Part shown: piece by piece, positions 1,049 through 45,512 of the stretch
Layout of the letters: each line of letters begins with the position of its first letter
Position numbering within the stretch: the stretch's first letter is position 1
NCBI RefSeq assembly: GCF_003605575.1
Contig: NZ_QKNY01000009.1
Location: 1 to 64,000, forward strand
Reading direction: 5' to 3'
DNA: 64,000 bases
From: Halonotius aquaticus
GTDB taxonomy: Archaea; Halobacteriota; Halobacteria; Halobacteriales; Haloferacaceae
Program-made: the position numbers and the translations under genes
The notes under the pieces: generated by a model
Told to the model about the DNA's origin: nothing
The model's database searches: none
Seen by the model: only the letters and a program-made list of their open reading frames with translations

Positions 1049-3379
1049 TCATCGATTGTCTGCAACAGAGATGTTTCTGGCAGTCGCGACGATGGCTTGT
1101 CCGTATGCGATCCCCCCGTCTCCTGGTGGTACCGCAGCTGGTTGGAGATAGCGACAGTCGCTCGGCTCGACGTGAGTTCGGAGCTGCCGCGAGATGGCAC
1201 CGTTGTAGGCTACCCCGCCGGTAAAGCCGACAGCTCCGACATTCCGCTCGGCAGCCGTGTCGAGCGCGATCGTCGCTAAGCCGCTCGCTAACGCATGTTG
1301 TGCTGTTGCAGCGACATCGGCTGCCGACGCGTCGGCTGTGAGGGCAGCCAGCGATCGGACGAGCGTCTGCACATCGAGGACACGATCGCCAGAGCGTGTC
1401 TTATAGGGGATATCGATCGGCTGCGGGGTTCCGTCGCGTGCGAGCCCTTCCAGCCGCTGGGCGGGTTCACCCTCGTAGGTGCGGCGGTCACAGGCACCGA
1501 CCAACGCGCTCACCGCATCGAGATACCGACCCGCGCTGGTCGTTGTCGGGGCGTTCACCCCGCGTTCAGCCTGCTGGCGGACGACAGCGGCATCATCGCG
1601 GCTTTCGACGGCACCGGTTTCCAGCAACCGGTCGTCGATCCGATCGGTATCCGCAAGCAGCGTCGCTAAGATGCGTGCTGGATATTCGATGGCAACCTCA
1701 CCACCGGGCAGCCCAAACGACGAGAGGCCCCCAACACGTTCGAACCCCTCGTAGGTCACGTCCAACACTTCACCGCCCCAGATAGTGCCGTCCGGGCCGT
1801 AACCGGTGCCATCGGCCACGACCACAATCGCTCGGTTGACGTCGTGTTCGGCACACAGCGCAGCTGCGTGGGCATGATGGTGTTGGACAGCAACTGGGCC
1901 GGCCATCCCATCTGCCGCATACTGTTCGGCCTCCGTCGTCGTCAAGAAGTCGGGATGGCGGTCACAGGCGACGACATCGGGAGAGAGGTTCGTAAGCTCC
2001 TGAAGATGGGTAACCGCGTCACGGTGAAACGCCAGCGTGTTCGGGGAGTCGACAGCACCGATGTGTTGTGAGCTAACGACGCCGTCACTGCCGGCGACTG
2101 CGACCGTCGCATCCCGTTCGGGGCCAACGGCCAGCACGACCGGTGACTCGCCGTCGACACCGGTCGGATTCGGCAGCGTCGTCGGCGTCCAGCCACGTGA
2201 TCGGCGGACGAACCGCGGGGTGTCGTCGACAACGCGTACCACGCTGTCATCACAGCGGGCGACGATCTCACGGTCGTGTCCGACCACGCCATCGACGACA
2301 TCGCCGAGTCGATCCCAGACGCTCTCCGTCGTCGTACACATCGGCTGCCCGGGGCGGTTCGCACTGGTCATCACCACGGGGTCGTCCACGTGGTCGAACA
2401 GCAGGTGGTGCAGGCCAGCGTATGGGGTCATGACCCCAACCGTCGATAGCCCCGGGGCGACGACATCGAGCCACGACGCCGCTGTCGTCGTCTCAAGCAG
2501 CACAATCGGACTGCGGACGTCGGTCAGCAACTCTCGGGCCGTGTTGTCGACCTCGGCGAAGGCTTCGATAGCGTCGACCGACCGAGCCATACACGCGAAG
2601 GGTTTCGCCGGTCGTCCGGTTCGGGCTCGGAGCCGGCCGACTGTCTCGGGGTCAGTCGCGTCACAGACCAGGTGGATGCCGCCGGTGCCTTTGATCGCAA
2701 GGATCGAGCCGTCGGTCAACGCGTCGCCGGCCCGAGCGATGGCGTCGGTGCCTGTCGCCACACACTCAGCACCTGTCGCCACGCACTCGGCGTCGATCTC
2801 GTAGCGAAGCGTCGGCCCACAGTCCGGACACCCGATGGTCTGGGCATGACAGCGACGGCTTGTCGGCGTTTCGTATCGCTCGCGGCAGTCCTCACACAGT
2901 GGGAAGGCGGCCATCGAGGTACGGGCGCGGTCGTACGGCACGTCCTCGACGACAGCAAAGCGCGGGCCGCAGTCGACGCAAGCGGTCGCCCAGTACTCGT
3001 GGTAGCGTGAGTCAGGATCACGGAGGTCGTCGAGACACGCCTCACAGATACCCGTATCCGGCGGTACCGGCGCATCAACGCCCCCGGCGTGCTTGCCGGT
3101 CGAGTCACAGATCTCGAAGCCTTCGACGCCGGTTGGATCGCGCCACTCGACATCGACCGCCTCAACGGTCGAAAGCGGTGGCGGGTCGGTACGAACCGTC
3201 TGGAGTACCTGTTCGATAGCCGCTTGCGGCCCCTCGAAGGCGGCCTCGACAGCACCCCCTGTATTGCGGACGTAGCCAGCGATACCGGCGTCAACGGCCG
3301 TTCGGTAGACAAACGGGCGGAAGCCGACGCCCTGGACTGTCCCTGAAATCTGCACGGCGGCACGACAGCGCTCATCCAT
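1049..3379 (-). CDS. hypF: Carbamoyltransferase HypF, [NiFe]-hydrogenase maturation
   Basis: HypF (776 aa) uses carbamoyl phosphate and ATP to make the thiocarboxamide on HypE that becomes the cyanide ligands of the [NiFe] active site. All family domains appear in order: an N-terminal acylphosphatase domain with GTVQGVGFRPFVYR (residues 13-26); paired zinc fingers with four CxxC motifs (about 105-185); a YrdC-like ATP/carbamoyl domain (about 200-385); and a Kae1-like C-terminal domain with the metal-binding HHHAHAA motif. The length is normal for the family. It is the last gene of the hydrogenase operon. Its ATG lies two bases after the hypB stop, so translation is probably coupled. Confidence 0.97.
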   Translation of the reverse strand: MDERCRAAVQISGTVQGVGFRPFVYRTAVDAGIAGYVRNTGGAVEAAFEGPQAAIEQVLQTVRTDPPPLSTVEAVDVEWRDPTGVEGFEICDSTGKHAGGVDAPVPPDTGICEACLDDLRDPDSRYHEYWATACVDCGPRFAVVEDVPYDRARTSMAAFPLCEDCRERYETPTSRRCHAQTIGCPDCGPTLRYEIDAECVATGAECVATGTDAIARAGDALTDGSILAIKGTGGIHLVCDATDPETVGRLRARTGRPAKPFACMARSVDAIEAFAEVDNTARELLTDVRSPIVLLETTTAASWLDVVAPGLSTVGVMTPYAGLHHLLFDHVDDPVVMTSANRPGQPMCTTTESVWDRLGDVVDGVVGHDREIVARCDDSVVRVVDDTPRFVRRSRGWTPTTLPNPTGVDGESPVVLAVGPERDATVAVAGSDGVVSSQHIGAVDSPNTLAFHRDAVTHLQELTNLSPDVVACDRHPDFLTTTEAEQYAADGMAGPVAVQHHHAHAAALCAEHDVNRAIVVVADGTGYGPDGTIWGGEVLDVTYEGFERVGGLSSFGLPGGEVAIEYPARILATLLADTDRIDDRLLETGAVESRDDAAVVRQQAERGVNAPTTTSAGRYLDAVSALVGACDRRTYEGEPAQRLEGLARDGTPQPIDIPYKTRSGDRVLDVQTLVRSLAALTADASAADVAATAQHALASGLATIALDTAAERNVGAVGFTGGVAYNGAISRQLRTHVEPSDCRYLQPAAVPPGDGGIAYGQAIVATARNISVADNR

Positions 3380-3381
3380 CG

Positions 3382-4179
3382 TCAGTGGTGGGCGTGGTCG
3401 TGTCCGGCGGCGCGCACGTCGGTGAGAAACGACGCCACCGCGTCGAGTCCGTCGCCGTCGCGGCCGTTCGTTCGGAACACGTCCATCTCGGGGGCAACAT
3501 CGGCGATGTCCGACGCCATCCGGTCGATATCAGCACCCACGGCATCGGCAATGTCGATCTTGTTGATCACGGCGGCATCACAGGCCTCGAACAACAGCGG
3601 GTGTTTGCGAACCACGTCGTCGCCCTCGGTCGTACTCACGACGAGTACCCGGGCCTGTGCACCGAGTGGGAAGTCAGCCGGACACACCATGTTCCCGACG
3701 TTCTCGACGTACAACCGGTCGAGTGCGTTGAGGTCGAGATCGGTGAGCGCATCTCCAAGCAGCCCGGGATCGAGATGGCACTCCTTGCCTGTCGTGACGT
3801 TGGCAACGTCGACGTCGTGCGTGCGGAATCGACGTGCATCGTCGTCGCCGGCCACGTCGCCGACGACGACGCCGATGGCTTCGTCCGACGGCGCGCGCTC
3901 GATCAGGTGTTCGATCAGGGTCGTCTTGCCGCTCCCGGTGGCACCGAGAAACTCGACGACTGACACGTCGTGGTCGTGAACCAGCCGCTCGTGGAGGGCA
4001 CGCGCCTGCTCGCGGTATTGGGCGAGCACGTCGTCGCTCATGTCGGTTCCATCGGCGTCGTCACCGTGACCGAACCGATGGGCGCGGGCGACCGGGAGCG
4101 GATTCTTGCGGCGCAGGACGCGGCGGAGTCGATGGATCGGGAATCGATGCGACCGTCGTGGGTGGGTGAACAGTGTCAT
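3382..4179 (-). CDS. hypB: Hydrogenase nickel incorporation GTPase HypB
   Basis: HypB is a SIMIBI-class GTPase that, with HypA, delivers nickel to the immature large subunit. The P-loop GATGSGKTT, the metal/G2 region with TGKECHLD, the VENVGN segment, STTEGDD and the guanine-specificity motif NKID are all present. The C-terminus ends in a short His tail (HDHAHH). Two starts compete. The ATG at 4179 overlaps the hypA stop (ATGA) and has a GGGAG ribosome-binding-like sequence seven bases upstream, but it adds 46 very basic residues unlike this acidic proteome. The ATG at 4041 gives a 219-aa protein beginning MSDDVLAQYREQ, which matches the usual archaeal HypB N-terminus. I give the longer form. 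The function is certain, the start is not. Confidence 0.93.
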   Translation of the reverse strand: MTLFTHPRRSHRFPIHRLRRVLRRKNPLPVARAHRFGHGDDADGTDMSDDVLAQYREQARALHERLVHDHDVSVVEFLGATGSGKTTLIEHLIERAPSDEAIGVVVGDVAGDDDARRFRTHDVDVANVTTGKECHLDPGLLGDALTDLDLNALDRLYVENVGNMVCPADFPLGAQARVLVVSTTEGDDVVRKHPLLFEACDAAVINKIDIADAVGADIDRMASDIADVAPEMDVFRTNGRDGDGLDAVASFLTDVRAAGHDHAHH

Positions 4180-4568
4180 GTGTGAACTCCCTCGTTGCAT
4201 TCTGGGGCATCCGGAACGGTGATCGACGCCAGCCGACACTCCTTGCCGCTGGTGAACTCGACGCTCGACCCGCAGTCGGGACAGCGCGCCGTCGGCACCC
4301 GGCCGGCCGTCGCCCCGAACGACGGCGGCTCACCGGCCCAGCCACAGTCACAGGCCGCCTGTGGGTCGACCGACTCGATCTCGACTGTCAGGTCGGAATC
4401 CCCCCGGGTTTCGGCGACAGTTTCGAGACAAAACCGTAACTGGGTGGGATTGACGTGTGTTGCCACCCCGAGCTCGACGGTCAGCGTCTCGACGGTGTCG
4501 GCCCCGTGGTCGGCTGCGGCCTCGCTGGCGCGGGCGAGCAGTTCCTCGGCGACACTGAGTTCATGCAT
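4176..4568 (-). CDS. hypA: Hydrogenase nickel metallochaperone HypA
   Basis: HypA (130 aa) binds nickel through its N-terminal MHE motif, which is present here as MHELSVAEEL, and hands it to the large subunit together with HypB. The structural zinc site is visible as CDC around residue 73 and CPDC about 20 residues later. Length is slightly above the usual 110-120 aa because of a short acidic tail. The stop overlaps the possible hypB ATG, and the start lies two bases after the hypE stop. Both fit tight co-translation in the hyp operon. Confidence 0.96.
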   Translation of the reverse strand: MHELSVAEELLARASEAAADHGADTVETLTVELGVATHVNPTQLRFCLETVAETRGDSDLTVEIESVDPQAACDCGWAGEPPSFGATAGRVPTARCPDCGSSVEFTSGKECRLASITVPDAPECNEGVHT

Positions 4569-5605: not shown

Positions 5606-6744
5606 AGATCGGGCTCGCCCCCGTATTCGTGCCAGATCTTGCAGGTGCCTTCGTCGGAGACCATACACGCACCGACCGGATTCGACGGCGTGCACTCCTC
5701 GCCGAACAGCTCACACCCCTCGGGGGAGGCCGTGCCGGCCATGATATCCCCACAGATGCACTGTTCGGTGAGTGGATCTCCAGCCCCGTCGACAGCGTCG
5801 ATATCGAACTGGGCTCGGGCGCTGTGATCGGCGTAGGCCTCCCGCAACACGAAGTTGGCGTCCGGGATCTCGGCGATCCCGCGCCACTCGCCGGACGTGA
5901 GCGTGAACACGTCGTCGATGGCGGCCATCGCCGCCTCGTTGCCCTCCCGGGAGACACACCGCGGATAGGCGTTGTCGAGACCTCCCTCGCCGGCCTCGAT
6001 GAACTCCAGGATGCGCCGGACGCCGTAGAGTACGTCCAGCGGTTCGAACCCGCCGACGACGACTGGGAGATCGTACTCGTCGACGAACTCCTCAAACAGC
6101 CCGTACCCCGTGATGGTCGCGGCGTGGCCGGCGGCGAGAAACGCATCGACATCCGTCTCGGGCATCTCCGCGACGACTTCCATCGCCGGCGGGACGTACT
6201 TGTGCGCCGAGAGCACGGAGAAGTTCTCGGGTGGATCGGCCTGAAGGACGGCTGCGGTGGGTGCGGCGGTTGTCTCGAATCCCGTGGCGAAAAAGACCAC
6301 GTCCTCATCTGGGTTGGTTTCGGCGAGTTCGACGGCCTCGCTGGCGCTGTAGACGACCTCGACCGACGCCCCCTCGGCTTTGGCATCGGCGAGGCTTTTG
6401 ACGGTGCCTGGCACGCGAAACATGTCGCCGTACGTTGCGACCGTTTTGCCAGCCTCCGCTAGCGCGACCGCCTCGTCGACCTCGGGCATGTTCGTCACAC
6501 AGACCGGACACCCCGGCCCCATCGTCACTGAAAGGGCGTCGGGAAGCATGCTTCGCAGGCCGAACTTCGCGATGACCTGCTCGTGGCTCCCACAGACGTG
6601 CATGATCTCGACGGGCTCGTCGATGCGCTCCATCTGAGCCGCGATGTCGTCGGCGAGTTCGTCGGCAACCTCCGGGTCTCGAAACTGGAGGTCGGCAGCC
6701 CCGCCGTCGCCCGCATCGCTGGCGACCGGCTCGCTAGTCGTCAT
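5602..6744 (-). CDS. hypD: Hydrogenase maturation protein HypD
   Basis: HypD (380 aa) is the iron-sulfur scaffold on which the Fe(CN)2CO unit is assembled with HypC and HypE. Diagnostic motifs are visible: HVCGSHE near residue 49, GPGCPVCVT, ATGFETTAAPTA, and the C-terminal cysteine cluster with CICGDIMAG, GCELFGEEC and GACMVSDEGTC that holds the [4Fe-4S] cluster and redox thiols. The start at 6744 begins MTTSEPVAS. The same frame stays open another 100 codons upstream, but that stretch is Ser/Arg-rich shadow of hypC. The coding region overlaps the end of hypC by 11 bases. Confidence 0.96.
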   Translation of the reverse strand: MTTSEPVASDAGDGGAADLQFRDPEVADELADDIAAQMERIDEPVEIMHVCGSHEQVIAKFGLRSMLPDALSVTMGPGCPVCVTNMPEVDEAVALAEAGKTVATYGDMFRVPGTVKSLADAKAEGASVEVVYSASEAVELAETNPDEDVVFFATGFETTAAPTAAVLQADPPENFSVLSAHKYVPPAMEVVAEMPETDVDAFLAAGHAATITGYGLFEEFVDEYDLPVVVGGFEPLDVLYGVRRILEFIEAGEGGLDNAYPRCVSREGNEAAMAAIDDVFTLTSGEWRGIAEIPDANFVLREAYADHSARAQFDIDAVDGAGDPLTEQCICGDIMAGTASPEGCELFGEECTPSNPVGACMVSDEGTCKIWHEYGGEPDL

Positions 6745-7054
6745 CGCCGCCCTCCGGTTCGACAGCCGCTTGCTCGCCGCCGAGGTCGATGTCGGCACCG
6801 CGGGGCGCGCCGATCTCGTCGAGGGCCTCCTCGGCGTCATCGCCGAACAGCGATTCGTAGATGGCGATGGTTTCCTCGACCTCCTGTTCGGGGATCTTCC
6901 GGATGGCGAACCCTGCGTGGTTGAGGATATAATCGCCGACATCGACGGCGTCACCGACCACATCGAGCCGGACGCGCCGTTCGACACCCCAGAAATCGGC
7001 GACTGCCTCGTGGTCGTCGATCTCGACGATCTCGCCGGGGACACCGAGACACAT
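6734..7054 (-). CDS. hypC: Hydrogenase assembly chaperone HypC
   Basis: HypC (106 aa) is the small chaperone that carries the Fe(CN)2CO unit from HypD to the large subunit through its cysteine at position 2. The invariant MCLGVPG N-terminus is present, followed by the OB-fold-like body with VGDYILNHAGFAIRKI. An acidic tail of about 30 residues extends beyond the usual 75-90 aa. Its ATG overlaps the stop codon of the upstream 59-aa zinc-finger gene (TGATG). Confidence 0.96.
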   Translation of the reverse strand: MCLGVPGEIVEIDDHEAVADFWGVERRVRLDVVGDAVDVGDYILNHAGFAIRKIPEQEVEETIAIYESLFGDDAEEALDEIGAPRGADIDLGGEQAAVEPEGGDDD

Positions 7055-7233
7055 CAGCGCTCACCTCCAGGGCCCTCGCTGCCGGCCTGCGCACCGATGA
7101 GCTCCGGATCGCCCGGCAACAGGCGGTCTGGCCGGAAGAACCCCTTGACATGGTGGTCGTCGGCCTCATGGGCGTCGATTGCTCCTTTCTCGATCTCTTC
7201 CTCACAGTCCGTGCAGTACCAGGTTCCGTTCAT
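7054..7233 (-). CDS. 59-aa zinc-finger-like protein in hydrogenase operon
   Basis: This small frame starts MNGTWYCTDCEEEIEK and ends GPGGER. It has one CxxC pair (residues 7 and 10) and, about 15 residues later, H22 and an HH pair (27-28), which together could make a Cys2His2 zinc site. I do not recognise a named family. Its position argues strongly that it is translated. The ATG overlaps the stop of the upstream protease gene (ATGA), and its own stop overlaps the hypC ATG (TGATG). The codon usage is GC-rich like its neighbours. In some bacterial hydrogenase operons small rubredoxin-like or HupH/HypX-type accessory proteins occupy this position, but homology to them is not visible. Confidence 0.75.
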   Translation of the reverse strand: MNGTWYCTDCEEEIEKGAIDAHEADDHHVKGFFRPDRLLPGDPELIGAQAGSEGPGGER

Positions 7234-7727
7234 AGTGGTGTGTTGAGTCGTGTGGTAATGTGTGAGACAAGCTCGGGGAGTGCGTCCGAAACGGGGTCGG
7301 ACAGCTCTAACCCCGGCTCAAGGACGGCCGGCACCACGCCGACGAGTTCAACCGTCTCAGGGAGGTCGTAGGCGGCGTCGCCGACCGCGAGCGCGTCGCT
7401 AAAGCTAAAATCGTGCATGGTCACCTCCGGCGGGGTCTCGCCGGGGTCGTCGTAGCGAAACGTCCGGACACACCCCGGTTCGTCGTCAACCGCGAGTGCG
7501 TCGACGACGATCGCTCGGTCGCTTCCGCTCATCGCTTCGAGGGCCAGAAACGCGGTCGTGCCGGCGTGGCTCACCGTCGTCCCTGGTGGCAGCGATCGCT
7601 CCCGTAAGGCCTCGATAGCGTGGAAGCCGACGCCGTCGTCGCGCATGACGCGGCTTCCGACGCCGACGACGGCCTGGCTGGTCGGCAGCTCGGCCGTTCC
7701 GACCTCACCCGTCGTCGTCATCGTCAC
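7230..7727 (-). CDS. hyaD: Hydrogenase maturation endopeptidase (peptidase M52, HyaD/HycI family)
   Basis: This 165-aa protein belongs to the nickel-dependent proteases that remove the C-terminal extension of the large subunit after metal insertion. The N-terminal signature is present as GVGSRVMRDDGVGFHAIEAL, where most homologues have G-[IV]-G-N; the Asn is Ser here. The second metal-site acid lies in VVDALAVDD and the third ligand region in MHDFSFSDAL. The frame overlaps the end of the cytochrome b gene by 23 bases, and its stop overlaps the ATG of the small zinc-finger gene. With a single large subunit in the operon, its substrate is presumably the adjacent HyaB-like protein. Confidence 0.92.
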   Translation of the reverse strand: MTMTTTGEVGTAELPTSQAVVGVGSRVMRDDGVGFHAIEALRERSLPPGTTVSHAGTTAFLALEAMSGSDRAIVVDALAVDDEPGCVRTFRYDDPGETPPEVTMHDFSFSDALAVGDAAYDLPETVELVGVVPAVLEPGLELSDPVSDALPELVSHITTRLNTPL

Positions 7728-44019: not shown

Positions 44020-44363
44020 GATGGACAGACGGTAGTACGACAGGCAGGGTCTTAAACATAACGCGTAGGAGATGTGATTGCCATCGATACAATCGCCCAG
44101 CGGCGACAGTACCGAATACCCCAAGATCAGATACGTTTCAGGTAATAAGTAGTGGTACACTACAGTAATAGCCCACTTATTACAAACTTTCCTCATATTT
44201 TCCATACAATATTTACTTTGACCAGTTTTATTCCTGTCAACTGACAAAAATACAGTATTAAACGTGTAGTTATGAGTGAGTATGTGTATGTATCGACAAG
44301 CGACCACGAGTGGGGCGTGCCAAGAGCCACGCCGATCCCACGTGAGAGGCAGAGAATCAAACG

Positions 44364-45512
44364 ATGAGTGATGACAATCCCGTAACTGAGTCGATATCGC
44401 CAGGCCAAGAGCGAATCCTCGAGGTCGCCGCAGCACGACCGGAGCTAACGACCGCTGAGATCGCCGCCGAAACCGGACACATCGTCGCAACCGTCCGTGA
44501 TACGCTGGCGGCTCACGGCGACGCCATCGACGACCAGGCTGATGGGTCGACAACCGGCAGCAAACCAACCGACTCGGCGTCGTTCAATGCCACCGAACAG
44601 GTCGTCCTCGAAGCGGCGTTGCGGAATCCTGACTCGACAAACCGGGAGATCGCCACCCGTGTCGGCACCCACGTTGGGCTGGTTCGAGATATCCGCGATG
44701 CCTATGAGGCGGTAGCGACACTACCCGACGACGAACCGACGACAGCCGACGAAGCGAGTGGGTCAGCAATGGAGTTCAACCAAGAGCTACTCTCGGCAGC
44801 CCAAGAGCGGATTCTTGAGACTGCCAGGGAGAACCCGGCGTTGACCAACAGGGAGATCGCCGACCAAACCGGCACGCGACTCCCGCTTGTGCGGGATACG
44901 ATCGCCGCCCACGGCCCCGAGACAACGACGAGACGACAGGCCAGCGGCGCAAAACCGACTGATTCAGCCACATTCAACGAGACGGAGCAGGCCGTCCTTG
45001 AGGCGGCACTGCGGAACCCGGAGGCGACCAACAAGGAGATCGCTGTACGCGTCGACAGCCATGTTGGGTTGGTTCGGGATATCCGCGACGCCCACGAGGA
45101 GACCGCAACCCTCCCCGACAACCACGACATCGCGGCGACAGCAACAGCAGATACCGAAGCCGCCGGCGATCACGATGCGCTCTCGGAGATACAGCAGGCG
45201 ATCCTTGCAGCGGCCGCCGACGCACCCGAAGACACCTACGCCGAGATTGCTGAGACGGTCGGGGCCCGGCTGCCGCTGGTCAGAGATACCCTTGAGGCCC
45301 ACGACATCGACGACACAGCAACCGCAGCGTCGACGGCGACAGACGACACGGCTACAGGGGATGAATCGCTGTCCGCCCTCCAACAGGAGATCATCGAGCA
45401 GGCGGCAGCGAACCCGACCCAAACGTACGCCGAGATCGCCGCCGAAACCGGGGCGCGGCTCCCGTTGGTCAGGGATACCCTCGAAACCCACGGCGACAAA
45501 CAGCCTGCCTGA
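44364..45512 (+). CDS. Protein of six repeated helix-turn-helix-like modules
   Basis: This 382-aa protein consists of six modules of about 38 residues separated by acidic or Ser/Thr-rich linkers (modules at about 14-52, 77-116, 145-184, 207-246, 276-313 and 339-377). Each follows the plan of two helices then a recognition-type helix: QERIL-EVAAARPELTT-AEIAAETG-...VRDTL. Modules 1, 3, 5 and 6 end in VRDTLxxH-like segments. Modules 2 and 4 share EAALRNP and HVGLVRDIRDAxE. Modules 1-2 are repeated as 3-4 at about 131 residues (393 bases). This is an array of winged-helix or HTH-like units and could bind several DNA sites. I do not know a named family. A MITE-like element lies just upstream. Confidence 0.85.
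   Translation: MSDDNPVTESISPGQERILEVAAARPELTTAEIAAETGHIVATVRDTLAAHGDAIDDQADGSTTGSKPTDSASFNATEQVVLEAALRNPDSTNREIATRVGTHVGLVRDIRDAYEAVATLPDDEPTTADEASGSAMEFNQELLSAAQERILETARENPALTNREIADQTGTRLPLVRDTIAAHGPETTTRRQASGAKPTDSATFNETEQAVLEAALRNPEATNKEIAVRVDSHVGLVRDIRDAHEETATLPDNHDIAATATADTEAAGDHDALSEIQQAILAAAADAPEDTYAEIAETVGARLPLVRDTLEAHDIDDTATAASTATDDTATGDESLSALQQEIIEQAAANPTQTYAEIAAETGARLPLVRDTLETHGDKQPA

Follow-up and report, generated by a model that had tools for sequence, protein, structure and literature searches.

A soluble Halonotius protein modelled as six wingless helix-turn-helix modules, and its tail-anchored paralogue

A six-module array in Halonotius

A soluble protein encoded in the window (the whole 64,000-nucleotide stretch of Halonotius aquaticus DNA analysed here) is modelled as six wingless helix-turn-helix (HTH) domains on flexible acidic linkers, and we propose, with roughly even confidence, that it binds DNA multivalently and with low specificity by means of avidity. 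Family comparison suggests that the widespread and older form of the array is tail-anchored in the membrane, which lay beyond the reach of an earlier reading of the DNA from its letters alone (the sequence-only reading). That reading knew of no named family with this design, and Pfam, NCBIfam, PHROGs, PADLOC and the PDB indeed returned only generic HTH matches; none of the solved structures matched the whole soluble protein by sequence. The papers searched contain no description of multi-HTH arrays in haloarchaea, and the family is apparently undescribed and narrowly distributed.

The coordinates, strand and open reading frame of the gene had been assigned correctly, as had its six repeated modules (Table 1). 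The repeat is real and far above chance: a profile made solely from modules of Halohasta, a genus other than that of the window, detected all six modules with i-Evalues of 7e-20 to 1e-12 and scored the whole protein at 288.8 bits, compared with 11.6 bits for the best of 2000 shuffled versions. Pfam HTH_24 (PF13412) matches the whole protein at 6.8e-21, over the Pfam cut-off. The folded modules are ∼42 residues long, slightly more than the ∼38 first estimated, and start 61–69 residues apart. Score matrices separate modules 1, 3, 5 and 6 (type A) from modules 2 and 4 (type B), which gives the order A-B-A-B-A-A; the two subtypes previously described as alternating therefore do so in modules 1–4, but modules 5 and 6 are both of type A. 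The duplication of modules 1–2 as 3–4 had been given a period of 393 bases, which is the average of 390 bases between the B copies (modules 2 and 4, 73% identical in DNA) and 396 bases between the A copies (modules 1 and 3). Nor do the units cover the protein, as had been claimed, since 130 of its 382 residues, about one-third, are linker and termini, mostly predicted to be disordered.

Table 1. The soluble array gene, its modules and its upstream stretch (positions in the window)
Feature	Positions	Strand	Remarks
Soluble six-module HTH-array gene	44364..45512	+	ATG at 44364, stop ends at 45512; 382 aa, net charge −47
Module 1, type A	44397..44525	+	aa 12–54; model helices 13–24, 30–37, 41–58
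Module 2, type B	44586..44711	+	aa 75–116; KPTDSASF just before; nearest to the first module of the tail-anchored paralogue in Halonotius
Module 3, type A	44793..44915	+	aa 144–184
Module 4, type B	44976..45104	+	aa 205–247; near-duplicate of module 2
Module 5, type A	45183..45311	+	aa 274–316
Module 6, type A	45372..45500	+	aa 337–379
Upstream stretch CAACTGACAAAAATACAGTATTAAACGTGTAG, putative promoter core	44238..44269	+	kept in Halonotius roseus and A07HN63, flanks differ

Fold and recognition helix

Structure prediction had been named beforehand as a check on the HTH assignment, and its outcome supports that assignment. From an alignment of six soluble sequences, AlphaFold2 models six three-helix modules (pLDDT ∼80–91) separated by disordered acidic linkers (pLDDT <50). 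The models of the soluble protein and of its paralogue contain no β strands and no wing, helix 3 passing directly into disordered linker; by comparison, nearly all of 26 other winged HTH proteins (wHTHs) of the window genome, used as controls, proceed after helix 3 to the usual L..G(L/I/V)(I/V) wing start. The modules are thus modelled as three-helix HTH domains without a wing, and they retain the canonical HTH residues Ala23, Gly27 and Val33 (module numbering). Pfam detects no AsnC ligand-binding (RAM) domain in the soluble protein, whose model has no strands. Comparison with solved structures by VIA-align placed Lrp/AsnC HTH domains in the top rows (Z 6–6.5, rmsd ∼2 Å over ∼50 residues). Z values of ∼6.5 are not high for helical domains of this small size, and we count them against the HTH and DNA-binding reading. 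The two top Foldseek rows were the tandem-Myb DNA binders SNAPc (7xur) and Reb1 (5eyb), with non-significant E values of 0.03–0.06.

A signature in helix 3 makes the family easy to recognise. When counted with a module profile in which columns 34–35 had been masked, Arg34-Asp35 was present in 100 of 100 modules from 17 sequences, including two distant proteins outside the model, and at none of the same recognition-helix positions in the 26 other wHTHs aligned to the modules. In canonical HTH numbering, we take residues 34–35 to lie on the side of helix 3 that is usually turned towards DNA. Positions 30 and 32 of this recognition helix are hydrophobic in the modules and mostly polar in the control wHTHs, and position 40 carries His or Tyr in place of a core Leu. 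In the GntR regulator FadR, Arg49 contacts backbone phosphate and Arg45 recognises a guanine (PMC7797058). With the register set by hand on the HTH positions, module Arg34 aligns with FadR Arg49, the phosphate contact, and the Arg45-equivalent position is Val, Leu or Ile in 92 of 92 aligned modules; on this alignment the modules would keep the phosphate-contacting arginine of GntR proteins without the one that reads guanine.

The net charge is −47 for the soluble protein and −112 for the tail-anchored paralogue, whose whole modules are more acidic than the control wHTHs (p 6e-4). The recognition helices are near neutral and similar in charge to those of the control wHTHs (mean +0.35 for the controls; p 0.19 and 0.63). 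Because the recognition helices resemble the controls while the whole protein is acidic, charge is compatible with DNA binding in a salt-rich cytoplasm but no proof of it, and we rejected acidity as a disproof of it.

Family distribution and origin

The window genome contains a second gene, whose product, a paralogue of 526 aa, has seven modules and a hydrophobic C-terminal helix; AlphaFold2 models it as seven three-helix units with a predicted membrane helix at residues 505–525. The genomes of five Halonotius and four Halohasta were compared, among them Halonotius roseus, H. terrestris, H. pteroides, the uncultured archaeon A07HN63, Halohasta litorea and Halohasta salina. The tail-anchored form occurs in all nine, always with seven modules. 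The soluble form is confined to Halonotius, where it occurs in five of five genomes with six modules in the window, H. roseus and H. terrestris, three in H. pteroides and eight in A07HN63. In A07HN63 the eight modules lie across two overlapping frames (6019–7625), through a frameshift or an assembly error. Two distant haloarchaea, represented by the metagenome-assembled genome QH_10_67_22 and by genome G402, which belongs to a different family of the order, have proteins with four modules and a hydrophobic C-terminal tail. Homologues with other module numbers, the search for which had been suggested from the sequence, thus carry three, four, six, seven or eight. In a scan of 391 genomes of the class, Halonotius and Halohasta modules scored ∼61–84 bits, followed by those of G402 (42–57 bits). 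No relatives were found in IMG/VR viral contigs, plasmids or phage records, and a virus or plasmid origin was rejected on these grounds. A role in anti-phage defence was likewise rejected, as the PADLOC matches are only to the apparent HTH part of CARF models.

Related single modules were also observed in proteins of other design. A third protein of the window genome (∼745 aa; 2301–4535, contig C5:32800–35034, + strand) contains one family module (60.7 bits, with VRD) within an acidic low-complexity stretch and has a long coiled-coil C-terminal half. A PAS histidine kinase of H. roseus (1927–3246, − strand) carries a related HTH module, with VRQ replacing VRD, at its N terminus, an unusual site for an HTH. 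Several haloarchaeal families (eight loci) also have small proteins in which a single related HTH precedes a hydrophobic C-terminal stretch; the tail-anchored arrays may descend from this design.

The module positions of the tail-anchored proteins match between Halonotius and Halohasta above random pairing (p ∼0.001), which suggests that the seven-module form probably predates the split of the two genera. The type B soluble modules with the adjoining KPTDSASF score highest against the first module of the tail-anchored protein of Halonotius (mean 127–129 versus 97–101 for Halohasta), pointing to a soluble gene that probably arose within the Halonotius line, with copies of that module as part of its material. 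Both conclusions draw on short sequences. When the soluble protein of the window is compared with that of H. roseus, its modules are 78% identical (dN 0.15, dS 0.66) and its linkers 59% identical; judged from these values, the protein is under purifying selection, with the modules the more constrained part.

The soluble gene of the window and of H. roseus is flanked by folD and a gene for an HNH-type protein, and in the other Halonotius it lies elsewhere; the neighbours of the paralogue are common to Halonotius and different in Halohasta. Since the neighbours of both genes change between species or genera, a conserved operon was rejected and context yields no function for either gene. The place of the soluble gene differs in most Halonotius species. 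That of H. terrestris lies a few hundred bases past an apparent tRNA 3′ end (read by eye), upstream of position 5965; mobile DNA often inserts at such ends.

Proposed function and its alternatives

We propose that each module would dock helix 3 in the major groove of DNA, weakly and with little sequence specificity, because the modules keep the phosphate-contact position without a wing or a base-reading arginine. Six tethered copies could then jointly bind DNA tightly by avidity, and the array could hold clustered sites or bridge DNA segments. As the key positions are common to all modules, the array is expected to read one shared target rather than six, and the multi-site DNA binding envisaged by the sequence-only reading is plausible. 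The seven-module paralogue would bind likewise and tether DNA to the cytoplasmic membrane, with the soluble form as its free counterpart or competitor. The net charges of both proteins, the acidic paralogue modules, the missing wing, the hydrophobic positions 30 and 32 and the lack of a repeated genomic target in our searches all speak against DNA binding by the array.

The main rival is that the modules no longer bind DNA and act as protein-binding beads, on a scaffold that clusters one partner, such as a component of the transcription apparatus, either free or at the membrane. This is possible in view of the overall negative charge and the absence of a wing, and we regard it as doubtful on balance. 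The hydrophobic positions 30 and 32 would also suit a protein interface, and the invariant Asp beside the Arg favours one as well. The winged helix of archaeal TFE-α contacts the polymerase, and the array has a weak sequence likeness to TFE-α (NCBIfam E 1e-5; PDB 6pln E 0.03), but its structural matches to TFE are no better than those to Lrp. Further evidence against protein-binding beads comes from recognition helices charged as is normal for the wHTHs of the genome and from the invariant Arg at the phosphate-contact position (PMC7797058).

Alternatively, the protein could be a sequence-specific regulator in which each module reads a short motif and the array binds promoters with tandem copies, its own included. 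The upstream regions lend this some substance, as do recognition positions that are identical in all modules. The stretch CAACTGACAAAAATACAGTATTAAACGTGTAG is kept upstream of the soluble gene in three of five Halonotius species, and is likely to be a promoter core. Upstream of the tail-anchored gene, at a distance of ∼80–150 bases, lies a long intergenic element that is strongly conserved in the five Halonotius and recognisable in the four Halohasta (core TTAGATTGATTACTATTGCTTCGAGT and TAGATTAATTACTGTAGGTTAGAGT, respectively), although the neighbouring genes differ. Against such a regulator, the element, as TAGATTNATTACTNTNG, occurs without mismatch just once in the window genome, a regulon search with the upstream elements gave no excess over a reversed-pattern control, and neither an excess of a motif common to both promoters nor any repeated genomic target was found. 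With the base-reading Arg of GntR proteins replaced by Leu, Val or Ile, we consider specific regulation unlikely.

Lineage-specific repeat expansion with little or no function would account for the narrow distribution, the copy number that differs by species, the three modules of H. pteroides and the A07HN63 gene split in two frames, but it is improbable given a module dN well under dS, a soluble gene in every Halonotius and a tail-anchored gene of exactly seven modules in every genome compared.

Returning to DNA binding by avidity, a more far-reaching version, which we put forward only tentatively, is that the tail-anchored seven-module strings hold the haloarchaeal chromosome at the membrane by avidity and that the soluble form of Halonotius competes with them or bridges. 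If so, the six-module derivative would act on the same DNA as the tail-anchored form. Haloarchaea are polyploid and, to our knowledge, the organisation and anchoring of their DNA are poorly known. The soluble gene and its paralogue would offer two defined genetic entry points to this subject, an older membrane-anchored form and a soluble offshoot within one array family that may hold DNA at multiple points simultaneously.

Comparison with known systems

The closest structural likeness is to Lrp/AsnC and MarR-type wHTH proteins, with which the modules share the three-helix HTH core, the HTH_24 match and an rmsd of ∼2 Å. The soluble protein differs from these in having no wing, RAM or dimerisation domain and six copies per chain, and its modules differ in the invariant Arg-Asp and in His or Tyr at position 40. 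They differ from GntR regulators in lacking, in the hand-set register, an equivalent of FadR Arg45. TnsD-type target selectors of Tn7 also carry several HTH domains on one chain (PMC10293859), together with TniQ and zinc-finger parts; neither transposon genes nor similarity to these selectors was detected for the soluble array. ArnR and ArnR1, membrane-bound one-component regulators of Sulfolobus, have a single HTH joined to HAMP and sensor domains and a pair of membrane helices (PMC6396743). The tail-anchored paralogue resembles them as an archaeal HTH protein with a C-terminal membrane anchor, and differs in having seven HTHs, a single predicted membrane helix and no sensor domain; the soluble window protein lacks a membrane helix.

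Tandem Myb proteins (SNAPC4, Reb1, Cdc5) likewise carry several wingless three-helix HTH units per chain and occupy the top Foldseek rows and a place in the VIA-align list, with E values of 0.03 or worse that are non-significant. The soluble array differs from them in its long, flexible acidic linkers, and no Myb family is among its Pfam matches. By analogy, the array is thus like tandem Myb in design and the paralogue like ArnR, while the features tested do not establish membership in either group. Prokaryotic HTH proteins usually have one HTH unit or two, with oligomerisation supplying extra sites. Wingless chains of four to eight units would be a different route to avidity, nearer in design to the Myb arrays of eukaryotes.
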